Source: Haladaptatus sp. QDMS2
GTDB taxonomy: Archaea; Halobacteriota; Halobacteria; Halobacteriales; Halococcaceae
Assembly: GCF_029338295.1 (NCBI RefSeq)
Contig: NZ_CP119791.1
Location: forward strand, 434,001 to 498,000
DNA length: 64,000 nucleotides
Direction of reading: 5' to 3'
Positions 52,511-63,172 of this stretch are shown here, in pieces. The notes beneath the pieces were generated by a model that saw only the letters and a program-made list of their open reading frames with translations, was not told the DNA's origin and did not search any database. The translations under genes were made by a program, and so were the position numbers. Each line of letters starts with the position of its first letter. Position 1 is the first letter of the stretch.

Positions 52511-52693
52511 GGCCTCTCGGTTTGCCCGACGGCGCGAAAAACGTTCTGCCAGAGGAAAACTGACTTGCCCACCGGTGGGTAACTGTCGGGTGGCCTGTGA
52601 CGAGGCACCGACTCCGAACCGACCTAGGCAGTCGGTGATGTGGAGCCCTATGAGTGCCGAGGCCTCTCTCGAAAAACCAAAAAACAACACTCC

Positions 52694-53779
52694 CTACAAC
52701 TCCTTCGCAACGAACCTCTGCCGACCAAACTTAAAAAGCGGCCACACGAGCGGGTTCGTCCCTCGCTCCCAGCGGAGGACTGGGACCGCTTTCGCGCCGT
52801 ATTGGGTTTTGAAGCGAAACACCGAATTGTCGAAGTGAGAGCCTGCGGCGCCGAAACTGTACTCTTTGAACCCCTGTTCTATGCCCCACTTGATGGCGCG
52901 GGTGTGCATGAGTTCGGAGGGATAGTGGTCGTAACACTCGCGCTCTGGAATCGCCGAAAACCAATGATGAAGAATCGATTTTTCGGTATCGAGGAGGTAG
53001 ACGTATCGACCTACTATCTCCCCGTCTACGGTGGCCGTGAACACACGCACGCGGTCGGGAACGTAGTCCCGAAGCGTTTCGAAAAACGAGAACGGGATGA
53101 GGTTTCCGCCTACCCGTCTCGTATTCTTCTCGTACATGTCGTACGTTCGGCACATGTCGGAGCCTATCGGCGTTATCTCGACGTGGTAGTCCTGTTCGTG
53201 TGATCGTCTGATGTCTTTTCGCCGAGATTTGTCCATCCCCGCGAGGATGTCCTCCCAACCCGCCGAAAGGTCGATAAAGAACGTGGCGACGTTCGATTTC
53301 GGTTCGTAGCCGCGGGACCGCAGATACTGCCCGTAGCGGATCTGTCCGAGGTCGGCCGTCGAGATAAGGTGATACAGGATTTGGGGTTCGGTCGTGGCTT
53401 CGAGGGCGTCGAAGAGCAGGTCGATGTTCTCGCGTTCGTTGTTGGTGATAATCGGGCCGCCGTATCCGATTCCACCCGACTTCATCACCGAGATTTCGAG
53501 CGACGAAGCGAGAAGATTAGCGACGTCGTTCGGGACTGCTAACGCCGAGACGAAGTTGGGCATGATGGCGACCGGATTGGTATCTTTGCGCACGACGACG
53601 TGGCGGGGTTCGTAGTCGAGTCCGTTCTCGATAGCCGCGAGCCACTCGTGGCGATGGAACAGCGTTCCCTGGTCGGCGTGGGTCACGAGGTTGTTCCACT
53701 GGTTCTCGTTCACCTCGTCGATACTCCTGAGGATAGCCACCCCTTTCGCCCCCGAGTCAGCAGAGTTGCTCCGGGCCAT
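52694..53779 (-). CDS. FemAB-like GNAT acyltransferase
   Basis: A 361-residue protein with two GNAT-like halves, as in the FemAB/Acetyltransf_6 family. Typical segments: LFHRHEWLAAIENGLDYEPR near residue 40, WEDILAGMDKSRRKDIRRS near 178, and the C-terminal SGIP-like KEYSFGAAGSHFDNSVFRFK near 314. Such proteins transfer amino acids or acyl groups to envelope or lipid-linked sugars. The exact acceptor in haloarchaea is unknown. It stands next to a rearrangement scar to its right. Confidence 0.82.
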   Translation of the reverse strand: MARSNSADSGAKGVAILRSIDEVNENQWNNLVTHADQGTLFHRHEWLAAIENGLDYEPRHVVVRKDTNPVAIMPNFVSALAVPNDVANLLASSLEISVMKSGGIGYGGPIITNNERENIDLLFDALEATTEPQILYHLISTADLGQIRYGQYLRSRGYEPKSNVATFFIDLSAGWEDILAGMDKSRRKDIRRSHEQDYHVEITPIGSDMCRTYDMYEKNTRRVGGNLIPFSFFETLRDYVPDRVRVFTATVDGEIVGRYVYLLDTEKSILHHWFSAIPERECYDHYPSELMHTRAIKWGIEQGFKEYSFGAAGSHFDNSVFRFKTQYGAKAVPVLRWERGTNPLVWPLFKFGRQRFVAKEL

Positions 53780-53908
53780 TGTCTGGGCAATTGAGGGGGA
53801 ATGCTCTTCGTTATGGTTCGCCTTATGAGTGCCGTTGCGCCAATCGACGCGAGGGGTTCAAATGTGATTTAATCGATATGTCACAGGAGCTTTCACCACT
53901 CATTAAAA

Positions 53909-54046
53909 GGCACTGTCTAGTTAAGCCAGTTTGAGAAACGAGCAGGTCGTTGAGTTTCTTGTCCAAAGATGCTCGCAGACCTGCTCAGTGAGTCGTTTGC
54001 GGCGGATTTAGAAGAATGTTGGGAGCGTGAGCGGACGGCGACGCCG
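53909..54046 (+). mobile_element. Left-end fragment of an IS6-type haloarchaeal insertion sequence
   Basis: From GGCACTGTCTAGTTAAGCCA at 53909 the sequence resembles the terminal repeat and leader of haloarchaeal IS6-family elements, and the ATG at 53969 opens with MLADLLSESFAADLEECWER and ERTATP, which I recognise as the conserved N-terminus of their transposases. The transposase reading stops matching after codon 26 (about 54046), where it passes in frame into a glutamate-cysteine-ligase-like protein. Only this 138-base end remains. Confidence 0.6.
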
Positions 54047-54889
54047 TTGTCTGACGCGGAGGTCACCGAGATACCCAGCGAACGCACGCGAATTCAAAAC
54101 GAGGTGGTGGGCGGGGACTTCGAATATGTCCGCCACTGTGCCGGGACGCACATACACGTAGATCAGCAACCCGGGCACGAGGTCGACCAGATGAATGCGT
54201 TCGTCGCGCTCGATCCAGCGCTGGCGCTGGTCAACTCTTCGCCATACTACAGGGGAGAATGGCTGGCGACGGGCGCGCGTTCGAAAATGTACCGACGAGA
54301 AGCGTACGACAGCATGCCACATCAGGGACTGCTGTGGTCGTATATCGACGACAAGCGAGAGTGGACGCGCCGTCTGGAGCGTCGCTACGAGGAGTTCGTC
54401 GCCGCCACGCTGGACGCGGGTGTCGACCGGGCGACCGTTGAGGCGAATTTCGACCCAGAGAGCGCCATCTGGACACCGGTTCAGTTCCGCAAGCGGTTCG
54501 GTACCGTCGAATGGCGCTCACCGGACGCGGCACTACCGGGCCATGTCATTCAGCTGGCCGACCGGTTGGCCGACGTGACCGCCACCGTCCGCGACGGCGA
54601 GGTGCGTATCGAGGGCGAGACCGGCCGGTGGACCGGGGAGGAGGTTGTCCTCCCGTCGTTCGACGCCGTCCTCGAGTACGTCGACGCCGCCATCAAGGAC
54701 GGCCTCGGCTCAGAGGAGGTCCGTGGCTACCTCGAACGGATGGGATTCGATATCGCGGCGTACGACCCTCTCACCGAGCACGTCGACGACGGGCCGACGA
54801 TCACAGCCGAGGCAGCCCGGAATCGACGACTGGAGTGTGCCGACCTGCTCGAACAAGAAGTTCGCCGCCTGTCGGTCGATATCGACTGA
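53969..54889 (+). CDS. Chimera: IS6 transposase N-terminus fused in frame to a glutamate-cysteine-ligase-like protein lacking its N-terminus
   Basis: A 306-residue continuous frame. Residues 1-26 match the transposase start (see IS fragment); from residue 27 (LSDAEVTEIPSERTRIQNEV) it aligns with the second half of glutamate-cysteine-ligase-family proteins, including HCAGTHIHVDQQ near 55, ALDPALALVNSSPYYRG near 80 and VEWRSPDAALPGHVIQLADR near 190. The intact family member at 61885-63027 shows what is missing: the first 95 or so residues with the GIEIEFWVV metal site. So catalysis is probably lost although no stop has appeared. Either a recent chimera or a frame kept by selection. Confidence 0.75.
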   Translation: MLADLLSESFAADLEECWERERTATPLSDAEVTEIPSERTRIQNEVVGGDFEYVRHCAGTHIHVDQQPGHEVDQMNAFVALDPALALVNSSPYYRGEWLATGARSKMYRREAYDSMPHQGLLWSYIDDKREWTRRLERRYEEFVAATLDAGVDRATVEANFDPESAIWTPVQFRKRFGTVEWRSPDAALPGHVIQLADRLADVTATVRDGEVRIEGETGRWTGEEVVLPSFDAVLEYVDAAIKDGLGSEEVRGYLERMGFDIAAYDPLTEHVDDGPTITAEAARNRRLECADLLEQEVRRLSVDID

Positions 54890-54962
54890 CGATGCGGGCA
54901 GTTGCTCCGCTACCAATCTGTCTGTATCCCTGCACAAGATTTTTTATGGCATTGCCCTCTCA

Positions 54963-55196
54963 CTACAGAGAAAATCGTTTTAAAAACGACCGCAACAACG
55001 CATTGAACTCCTCCGGCTTCTCGAGCGGCGGCACATGCGCCGTCCCTTCCATGACTTCAACCTGCACATCCGCCAAGCCCGCGTCCAACACCGACGCAAT
55101 GTCTGCCATGACCGGCGCTTTGAGCGCAAATCGACGGTTCCCGACTGGTGAGGGTATTGCGCCTCTCGCCGCCGTCCGCGGTGTGATGCGTCTCAC
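54963..55196 (-). pseudogene. Alpha/beta-hydrolase C-terminal remnant
   Basis: The frame ends with VEVMEGTAHVPPLEKPEEFN and ALLRSFLKRF, the catalytic-His segment that closes many alpha/beta hydrolases. About 50 residues are recognisable; the first 25 or so residues look like non-coding translation. The nucleophile and acid regions are absent. It lies just right of the transposase/ligase chimera, so it is probably another product of the same rearranged region. Confidence 0.5.
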
Positions 55197-55390
55197 GCCC
55201 GTACTCTGGTGATGCAGCGTGCCTCCCGTGTTTGTGACTCTCGATGAACAGAGCCTCGGCGGCGCTCAGAGCGGTCGAGGGAGTGGTCCGAAGCGGGCGG
55301 CCACCATTTACGAAGCGTTCAGGCGCTCGGACCGGACAGCCGGCGGGGCCCGTAGGCTCTTACACCTGGCTCCAGAATGGCCATTCAGTC

Positions 55391-56221
55391 ATGAGTACTG
55401 ATGGGGAGGGAGAGCCATCGGGGGCGTCGCTGTCGTACGAAAACGTCCTCGACCGCGAGATGGAGAACGCGCTAAAGGAATTGAGTCGGCCGAGTGAGGG
55501 ATTGTTCCTCTCGGGACTCGCCGCCGGACTCAACGTCAGTTTCGGGGCGCTGTTCATGGGCATGGTATTGACGTTCTCGCCGTCGTTTCCCTCCCCGCTG
55601 GTCAAACATCTCCTGCTCGCGGGCGCATCGGCGGTTGGCTTTCTCTTCGTCATCCTCGGGCAGACCGAACTGTTCACCGCCCACACGACGCTCGCCGTGT
55701 TGCCCGTCCTCGACGGTCGGTCGTCGCTTGCGGACCTCGGGCACCTGTGGGGCGTCGTGTACGTCGCGAACCTCGTTGGATGTGGACTCTTCGCGGCGCT
55801 CATCGCCGTGCTCGGCCCGTCGCTCGGCATCGTCACGCCTGCGGCGTTCGCCAGCATCGCCGATTCGCTGCTCGGCCTTCCGTGGTGGACCGTCCTCCTG
55901 AGTGGCGTTGTCGCCGGGTGGCTCATGGGCCTCGTGACGTGGCTCGTCGCCGCGAGTCGAGACACCATCAGCCGGATTGTTATCGTTCTCGTCGTCACCA
56001 CGACCATCGGGTTCGGGCCGTTCCATCACGCGCTGCTTGGGACGACCGAACTCCTCTCCGCGATGTTCCTCGGAACCGGGGTAACCGCTGTGCAGTACGG
56101 CACCGTACTCTTCTGGACGACGCTCGGCAATGTCCTCGGAGGGAGCGTATTCGTCGCCGGCCTCAATTACGGGCACGCCGCCCGGGCTGGCAAGGACGTG
56201 TCTGTAACCACAGACGCGTGA
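55391..56221 (+). CDS. Formate/nitrite transporter family (FNT) protein
   Basis: A 276-residue channel-like membrane protein with six helices. After an acidic N-terminus (STDGEGEPSGASLSYENVLD), the first helix region LFLSGLAAGLNVSFGALFMG begins near residue 40; GQTELFTAHTTLAVLP near 95 and HHALLGTTELLSAMFLG near 216 carry the conserved FNT signatures, although the exact anion (formate, nitrite, hydrosulphide) is open. The ATG at 55391 was chosen over an earlier frame start at 55244 that crosses a GC-rich gap. Confidence 0.85.
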   Translation: MSTDGEGEPSGASLSYENVLDREMENALKELSRPSEGLFLSGLAAGLNVSFGALFMGMVLTFSPSFPSPLVKHLLLAGASAVGFLFVILGQTELFTAHTTLAVLPVLDGRSSLADLGHLWGVVYVANLVGCGLFAALIAVLGPSLGIVTPAAFASIADSLLGLPWWTVLLSGVVAGWLMGLVTWLVAASRDTISRIVIVLVVTTTIGFGPFHHALLGTTELLSAMFLGTGVTAVQYGTVLFWTTLGNVLGGSVFVAGLNYGHAARAGKDVSVTTDA

Positions 56222-56468
56222 CGGCAACGGTGTCATCGCTGGTTTCGCCACGGACCGGTTCGAATACTATCACTATACTGGAAATTTGGGATACGACAGA
56301 ACCACCCGGTTGATGTGACTATTCAGTCGCTCTTGCCACGTAGAACCTGTCTTTCAAAAACAAATGGGTGAGAATCTGTGGAATTGAAATTCATTTGCGC
56401 GGAAAAATCGAATTTTTGCGGACGAATGCACAACCCTTATCCGTACACTCCAATTTTGTGTAGATGCA
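56222..56468 (+). other. Intergenic leader region before the fourth cold-shock gene
   Basis: A 247-base AT-richer stretch with no ORF. CCCTTATCC at about 56432-56440 is a TATA-like element 30 bases or so before the cold-shock ATG at 56469, and GCGCGGAAAAATCGAATTTTTGCGG (about 56397-56421; key parts GAAAAATC and GAATTTTTGC) can fold into a hairpin. No RNA gene is recognised. Confidence 0.4.
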
Positions 56469-56666
56469 ATGGTAAACGGTAAAGTTGATTTCTTCAACGA
56501 CACTGGCGGCTACGGTTTCATCGCGACTGACGAATCTGACGACGACGTATTCTTCCACATGGAAGACGTTGGCGGCGAGGACCTCACGGAAGGCACCGAG
56601 ATCGAGTTCGACATCGAACAGGCCCCGAAAGGCCCTCGCGCGAAGAACGTCACCCGCGTCAACTAA
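56469..56666 (+). CDS. Cold-shock domain protein, dispersed copy
   Basis: A 65-residue paralogue of the cluster at 33744-34332. GGYGFIATDESDDDVFFHM contains both RNA-binding motifs; differences include MVNGKVDF at the start and GGEDLTEGTEIEFD. It has its own promoter, so expression may differ from the clustered copies. Binding of single-stranded nucleic acid is by family. Confidence 0.93.
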   Translation: MVNGKVDFFNDTGGYGFIATDESDDDVFFHMEDVGGEDLTEGTEIEFDIEQAPKGPRAKNVTRVN

Positions 56667-61884: not shown

Positions 61885-63027
61885 TCAGACGTTACTGTCT
61901 GCGTCCGCGACTTGCCGCGTGTGCCCGGCCATCAAGTTGCCGTCGCCGCCCGCACGGGGTGGTGCAGGGGTCGCCAGCAGTTCTACGTCTGCCCGGAGCC
62001 GGTCTGCGTACTGACGGCGAATCGTTCGCGCTTCTGACTCTTTAAGCGTGCCCGGCCCGCGCAATTCCTGGGAAATCGGCTCGTAGGCCGACGGGTCGAA
62101 GCCCATCGCTTCCAGGTAGTTGCACACCATCCCCGAATCGAGCCCCCACCGAATCGCCTGCTGGCTGACGGACTGCAACTGTTCGAACGTGGGGACGCCG
62201 ATGCGGTCGAACTGGACGCCCGTCGTGCCAATTTCGAGTGGCTTCGTCTCCGTCTGGGTGACGACGTCGCGCACGTCCATGGCCAATTGAACCGCCTGGC
62301 TCGGCAGCGTCGAGTCGGGTGCCCGCCACTCGACGGTCGGCTGTTCGTGACGCAGACGGACCGGGTTCAACACGGTGTTCTCTGCGCTGAAGTGTTCACA
62401 GACGTCTTCCTCTGCCACACCGCGCTCTGCAGCGAGGGTTTTGAACGCCTCGTAGGCATCCTCGGTCTGCTCGTTCCAGGCCTCGACGTTGTCTGCGTAC
62501 CCGCGCAGGTCGCAGTAGCGTTCGAAGTCCGATCCGCACTTCTTGCGGTAAGCAGCGGCCCGCGAAGAGTCCACCTCTCGCTCGCCGCAGTAGTACGGCG
62601 AGGAACTCACGAGCGCGAGTGCGGGGTCGAGCGCCGTAAGCAGGTTGAGTTGCCGACAGACGTTCCCCTTCTCGAAGTGAACGTGCGTGCCGGCGCAGTT
62701 TTTCGCGCTCTTGACGCCGTCTTCGTAGATGTCCTCGAAGAGATGCCCGCGCCCCTTCTTGGCCGGCACCGTTGCGTCGGTGAGCGGCGTCCCGAGTGGG
62801 ACGAGTTGCTTTTCGAGCGTGTCCGCGTACTGAATCGTTTTCCGAAGCGTGTCCTGTAAATCTCGTCGGAGTGCAGTCGCTGTTTCGTGCGGGTCTGTCC
62901 GCACCTCGATCAGTGGCCCGACGAACTCGGGTTCCACCTTGTCATGCGCGTCAGTGAGATCGTGGCCGTTACAAAGTCGTCCGTCGTCGTCGACGACCCA
63001 GAACTCGATCTCGATTCCTGTATTCAT
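61885..63027 (-). CDS. Glutamate-cysteine-ligase-family protein (GCS2 type)
   Basis: A 380-residue protein. GIEIEFWVVDDDGRLC at the N-terminus is the metal/ATP site of the GCS2 family, followed by GPLIEVRTDPHETA near residue 35, NCAGTHVHFEKG near 108, ALDPALALVSSSPYYCG near 130 and VEWRAPDSTLPSQAVQLAMD near 227. Haloarchaea make gamma-glutamylcysteine in place of glutathione, so this may be the ligase or a related carboxylate-amine ligase. Start ATG 63027 (MNTGIEIE) is chosen among three close starts. The truncated chimera at 53969-54889 is a paralogue. Confidence 0.82.
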   Translation of the reverse strand: MNTGIEIEFWVVDDDGRLCNGHDLTDAHDKVEPEFVGPLIEVRTDPHETATALRRDLQDTLRKTIQYADTLEKQLVPLGTPLTDATVPAKKGRGHLFEDIYEDGVKSAKNCAGTHVHFEKGNVCRQLNLLTALDPALALVSSSPYYCGEREVDSSRAAAYRKKCGSDFERYCDLRGYADNVEAWNEQTEDAYEAFKTLAAERGVAEEDVCEHFSAENTVLNPVRLRHEQPTVEWRAPDSTLPSQAVQLAMDVRDVVTQTETKPLEIGTTGVQFDRIGVPTFEQLQSVSQQAIRWGLDSGMVCNYLEAMGFDPSAYEPISQELRGPGTLKESEARTIRRQYADRLRADVELLATPAPPRAGGDGNLMAGHTRQVADADSNV

Positions 63028-63172
63028 CATAGTGGACCGGCGTGACTGCATCCCACCCCGGTCTTTCCTCTTTTCTGCTCATCCCCTCTCACTCTCCTGC
63101 TTGCAGGTGCAGTCTGTTTGTATCGGGGTCGATAACCCGTCAAAATACCACAGTGAACCGACCCGTCGGTTC

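Follow-up and report, generated by a model that had tools for sequence, protein, structure and literature searches.

The window (the whole 64,000-nt stretch of Haladaptatus sp. QDMS2 DNA analyzed here) contains a 306-codon open reading frame that starts with an ATG at position 53969 and runs to 54889, as stated in the initial annotation. The same annotation described this frame as a chimera in which the start of an IS6 transposase gene is joined, in frame, to part of a GCS2-family gene, a description upheld both by the identity of the 5′ part to an IS6-family insertion sequence (IS) and by the intact ligase gene of a congener (G001). The features of the locus are compiled in Table 1. A Pfam search with the fusion protein returned 0 matches, and no match was found among phage records.

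Table 1. Features of the fusion locus (positions refer to the window)
Feature	Position	Strand	Basis
11-bp site GTGCCGAGGCC where congener homology ends	52654..52664	+	comparison with congeners
FemAB-like acetyltransferase gene, in the block replacing the congeners' CAAX-protease gene and ligase 5′ end	52694..53779	-	Pfam FemAB_like, E=2.6e-14
IS6-family insertion sequence, first 137 bp (5′): left end, 60-bp leader, transposase codons 1-25 and part of 26	53909..54045	+	137/137 identity to L068:2505-3250
Left terminal repeat of the IS6 piece	53909-53928		
Probable fusion remnant, 306-codon open frame	53969..54889	+	ORF listing
9-bp microhomology joint GGCGACGCC, in frame (peptide A-T-P), common to both parents	54037..54045	+	three-way comparison of window, IS and G001
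GCS2/YbdK-like carboxylate-amine ligase gene (369 codons), 3′ part beginning near codon 86	54046..54889	+	93% aa identity with the uninterrupted gene of G001, L088:6030-7139(-)
Intergenic stretch plus the surviving C-terminal end of an alpha/beta-hydrolase gene	54890..55127	-	85% identity to G001, then abrupt loss

Analysis of the 5′ part revealed that the left end of the IS falls exactly at 53909 (sequence GGCACTGTCTAGTTAAGCCA), which confirms the IS-end-like sequence suspected upstream of the frame, and that positions 53909 to 54045 are identical throughout (137/137) to an IS6 element on plasmid NZ_CP119783 of Haladaptatus sp. YSMS36. The plasmid element (L068:2505-3250) is intact and measures 746 bp; its inverted ends match, and the 8-bp target duplication CCTAAATA lies on both sides of it. 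Its annotated IS6 family transposase begins at an ATG equivalent to 53969, and the protein matches the NCBIfam model NF033587 (transpos_IS6) with an E-value of 8.9e-61. Residues 1–26 of the fusion have matches in 80 plasmid records from haloarchaea, and many of these carry the annotation IS6 transposase, in agreement with their earlier assignment to a transposase N terminus rather than to a stretch without any transposase counterpart, and no relative free of the IS was found to carry these 26 residues on the ligase protein. More than 100 plasmid records contain similar IS DNA, and their homology to the window mostly stops at 54045. A functional IS6 element has an inverted end on either side and encodes a complete DDE transposase; here the left end and 25–26 codons remain, the right end and the 3′ 609 bp are missing, and no second IS end was found within the window.

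The ligase part could be traced to the congener as well. Positions 54037 to 55127 show 91.5% DNA identity to G001, where the uninterrupted gene sought in related genomes is intact and syntenic (369 codons, GTG start; L088:6030-7139, (−) strand). The protein it encodes matches GCS2 (PF04107) with an E-value of 1.6e-13 and the YbdK-like model TIGR02050 below its curated cut-off, and orthologues of the fragment with ~60–65% identity are present in other haloarchaea, e.g., Haloferax gibbonsii and Natronorubrum texcoconense. The initial annotation was thus right in aligning residues 27 onward with the second half of GCS2-family proteins, but the "intact copy" at 61885–63027 that it named as the counterpart is a distant paralog (61885–63051; 35% identity), which we rejected as the ligase donor at this identity; the true parent lies in the congener.

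The gene order in the congener is Nudix, CAAX-protease, ligase, alpha/beta-hydrolase (on the opposite strand) and transporter, and in the window a FemAB-like gene and the IS piece stand in place of the CAAX gene and the 5′ part of the ligase gene. The FemAB-like gene is missing at the equivalent position in G001 and in a further congener, G002. Neither the missing 5′ part of the ligase gene nor the CAAX gene was found elsewhere in the QDMS2 genome, which, together with the intact syntenic gene in G001, corroborates the deletion origin proposed earlier for the chimera. On the other side, homology to G001 runs beyond the fusion stop codon into the truncated alpha/beta-hydrolase gene, which is intact in the congeners (L088:5026-5955 and L089:5472-6323), and ends abruptly at 55127. 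Compared with G001, the neighboring genes have dS values of 0.63–0.82 and the ligase fragment one of 0.21; this difference suggests that the fragment (54037–55127) was exchanged between the lineages of the window and G001 after their split. The site GTGCCGAGGCC, at which the FemAB–IS block starts, is empty in G001, and in G002 (L089) these 11 bp stand as a direct repeat on either side of a 3.2-kb insertion, so that this site is an insertion hotspot through which DNA has entered more than once.

The 3.2-kb insertion of G002 encodes a ThiF-like protein (PADLOC E1-E2 models, E-values down to 7.8e-14) and a neighboring small protein. In the window, an apparent second replacement joint follows 55127, where the hydrolase remnant abruptly breaks off: the congeners have an amino-acid permease of 801–859 aa at the place taken here by a formate/nitrite-type transporter gene (55244–56221, in the region 55128–56400). 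Farther along, a ~190-bp stretch (56466–56660) upstream of a TauE-like gene matches several places in G001 and G002, with neighboring copies at, e.g., G001:C1:2015090-2015476, and may represent a conserved segment of a gene or a small repeat family.

Three-way comparison placed the joint precisely. GGCGACGCC occurs at nt 129–137 of the IS, at nt 258–266 of the intact ligase gene and once in the window (54037–54045), which follows the IS alone to the left of these 9 bp and the ligase gene alone to their right; the shared T-P-L stretch (54041–54049) at which the joint had earlier been placed is not where the parents overlap. For joints drawn at random between this IS and 1.2 kb around the ligase gene start, the probability of sharing at least 9 bases is ~4.5e-5. 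Retention of the reading frame is a matter of chance (1 in 3). Repeat-mediated deletions are recognized by a short direct repeat (about 4–20 bp) that is present in both parents and left as one copy at the joint, and by an undeleted gene in relatives with the deleted pieces not relocated, and the locus shows all of these features (with respect to G001 and the QDMS2 genome itself, G000). A pre-deletion arrangement that still carries the IS was not found.

Because the breakpoint lies 137 bp inside the IS and on a 9-bp microhomology, we infer a repeat-mediated deletion: the fusion is most probably the scar of a deletion between short repeats, and its open frame a young, probably non-functional remnant. 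The sequence comparison supports a role of the IS as the passive substrate of this deletion, which it would have undergone rather than caused. A block with the FemAB-like gene and the IS6 element would first have entered at GTGCCGAGGCC, upstream of the genes encoding the CAAX protease and the GCS2/YbdK-like ligase; a deletion between the copy of GGCGACGCC in the transposase gene (IS nt 129–137) and that in the ligase gene (nt 258–266) would then have taken the right part and right end of the IS, the CAAX gene and ligase codons 1–85, ~2.3 kb in all if the block stood at the GTGCCGAGGCC site. That insertion preceded deletion is likewise what we infer. The process itself is already known in haloarchaea: "repeat-mediated deletion" at repeats of 7–19 bp has been described in Haloquadratum and Halobacterium, with repeats of 7–9 bp in 11 cases and of 10–19 bp in 16 among natural isolates, and was likened by the authors to microhomology-mediated end joining (PMC3119063), which operates in Haloferax volcanii (PMC7776575).

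The initial annotation had instead held the IS responsible, through an IS6-mediated adjacent deletion in which the transposase would have linked the IS end directly to the ligase gene, with loss of the intervening DNA. In the case of IS26, the IS stays whole after an adjacent deletion. Adjacent deletions are a known effect of IS6-family elements and act from the IS end (PMC9602291), and one IS6 end is indeed present at the locus, but such an event would start exactly at the terminus and leave a complete IS, whereas here the breakpoint falls within the transposase gene (IS nt 129–137), 137 bp inside the element and at a 9-bp microhomology, and 609 bp including the right end have been lost. The proposal is not borne out by these observations and we regard it as very improbable; a two-step version, with an adjacent deletion followed by an internal one, is possible but unneeded. 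An unlikely, though better placed, alternative is a one-step replacement, in which microhomology end joining connected an incoming FemAB gene, together with an IS already broken at this point, to the ligase gene, i.e., an insertion coupled to a deletion. Several observations fit such an event: the FemAB gene and IS stand where the congeners have the CAAX gene and the 5′ end of the ligase gene, starting from the site used by another insertion in G002; deletion-coupled insertions are common in Haloquadratum (PMC3119063); and the dS of the fragment, low next to that of its neighbors, indicates that DNA exchange happened here. A simple deletion with the whole IS in place would, however, yield the same joint with no need for a coupled event. 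As for an assembly artefact, which we consider extremely improbable, no point in its favor was found: the contig that contains the joint is 2.95 Mb long and belongs to a genome with 99.96% completeness, and no other copy of the IS that could cause a misjoin was detected in the assembly.

Next, we considered what the fusion product could do. With ligase codons 1–85, the fusion has lost the GhExE Mg/ATP motif and core strands 1–3; in the AlphaFold model of an intact relative, the lost residues account for the first long helix, the strand that follows it and three core strands. In this family, the contacts to Mg and ATP come from GhExE (strand 1) and from acidic residues in strands 2 and 3 (PMC2588565), and all N-terminal invariant residues before T88 are gone, including E49 (invariant in relatives) and the E14 and E16 of the GhExE motif that characterizes an active GCS2/YbdK carboxylate-amine ligase. 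The [HD]x[NH] motif of strand 4 is kept (H61-x-H63), followed by D65 in place of an invariant E, shared by the paralog, the congener and all 22 outgroups (E65D); the E-W-R motif is also kept, and a usually conserved R is replaced by W at residue 98. AlphaFold predicted the fusion with a mean pLDDT of 47.8 and a pTM of 0.42, from a shallow alignment that makes these values supporting evidence only, and the intact relative with 68.7 and 0.74 from an alignment of similar, likewise shallow, depth. A fold search with the model of the intact relative placed YbdK (1r8g) and gamma-glutamylcysteine synthetases (gamma-GCS) on top with modest TM-scores, and sequence searches of the PDB (one protein; small profile) found no related structure. 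Given the loss of the Mg/ATP-binding N-terminal part, the E65D change and the poor fold prediction, the fusion product very probably cannot be an active ligase, as far as sequence and model allow this to be judged.

Over 280 codons, pairwise comparison of the fragment with the intact G001 gene gave dS 0.207, dN 0.033 and dN/dS 0.16, a ratio that mixes the time before and after the deletion, with most of the divergence possibly preceding it. The lack of stop codons had been taken to mean that the fusion is young or useful, which is a weak argument: since only ~3.8% of random substitutions would create a stop and the fragment and intact gene differ at 58 sites, summed over both lineages, the absence of stops says little, and about one or fewer would be expected on the fusion branch under neutrality. 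The protein branch is longer for the fusion (0.051) than for the intact gene (0.029), a difference that stems from few substitutions (3–8 versus 1–6 per outgroup; significance not established) and is a weak trend toward relaxed selection. Conversely, the dN/dS of 0.16 and the absence of frameshifts and stops may reflect continued selection on the fragment and count against reading it as a dead remnant.

Signals for expression were sought in the leader. No TATA-like element was found between the IS end and the ATG, and a sigma-70 promoter scan gave no match, although the sigma-70 model is not valid for archaea. Stretches resembling a TATA element come closest at 53903 and 53868, both outside the IS, which leaves the earlier idea that the ligase gene captured the transposase promoter unsupported. 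It is quite improbable, in our estimate, that the chimera is translated and functional, with the start codon of the IS and upstream signals expressing the C-terminal part of the ligase in a retained or new role, for instance as a regulatory partner of the intact paralog (61885–63051). The 306-codon open frame, the dN/dS of 0.16 against the intact gene and the kept H-x-H and E-W-R motifs speak for such a product, but the active-site strands 1–3 are lost, an invariant acidic residue (E65D) and the R at residue 98 are altered, the IS leader is devoid of a TATA-like element, the fold prediction is poor and the fusion is absent from the other genomes searched. The same low probability applies to the wider claim that an IS6 start captured a ligase fragment and that the resulting 306-aa chimera, expressed and selected, is a new protein born of one microhomology deletion. 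Most likely, the fusion is an inactive remnant whose frame is open by chance.

Matches to the IS6 start numbered ~100 in 146 genomes, and because many of them continue into short, decayed frames, truncated IS copies are common; no second long fusion of the IS6 start to a non-transposase sequence stood out by frame length among these genomes. One IS6-start frame of 294 codons (G088:C110) was rejected as a second fusion: its whole length encodes transposase and contains unknown bases as well as repeated sequence, which makes the excessive length a scaffolding artefact.

The locus, resolved to the base and with its two parents identified, exemplifies how deletions at short repeats inactivate mobile elements and adjacent genes in haloarchaea. 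It also calls for caution in annotation pipelines, where a deletion scar can pass for a normal 306-aa gene. The fusion would matter more only if the chimera were expressed and useful.

Among known systems, the IS6-family element carried by plasmid unnamed1 of Haladaptatus sp. YSMS36 (WP_276248646.1) is identical to the window copy over the 137 bp that remain and differs in retaining the other 609 bp and the right end. The C-terminal 280 residues of the fusion derive from a gene for a GCS2/YbdK-family carboxylate-amine ligase (PF04107; TIGR02050; 1r8g) and keep HxH and EWR, but unlike these ligases, the fusion is without the N-terminal 85 residues (GhExE, strands 1–3 and the first helix) and has no Pfam match. 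The repeat-mediated deletions of Haloquadratum walsbyi C23/HBSQ001 and Halobacterium NRC-1/R1 (PMC3119063) likewise involve direct repeats, usually shorter than 20 bp, of which one copy is left, and they often truncate mobile elements and also truncate genes; in the case described here, by contrast, the repeats lie in two different genes and the frame is kept, which yields a long fused ORF.
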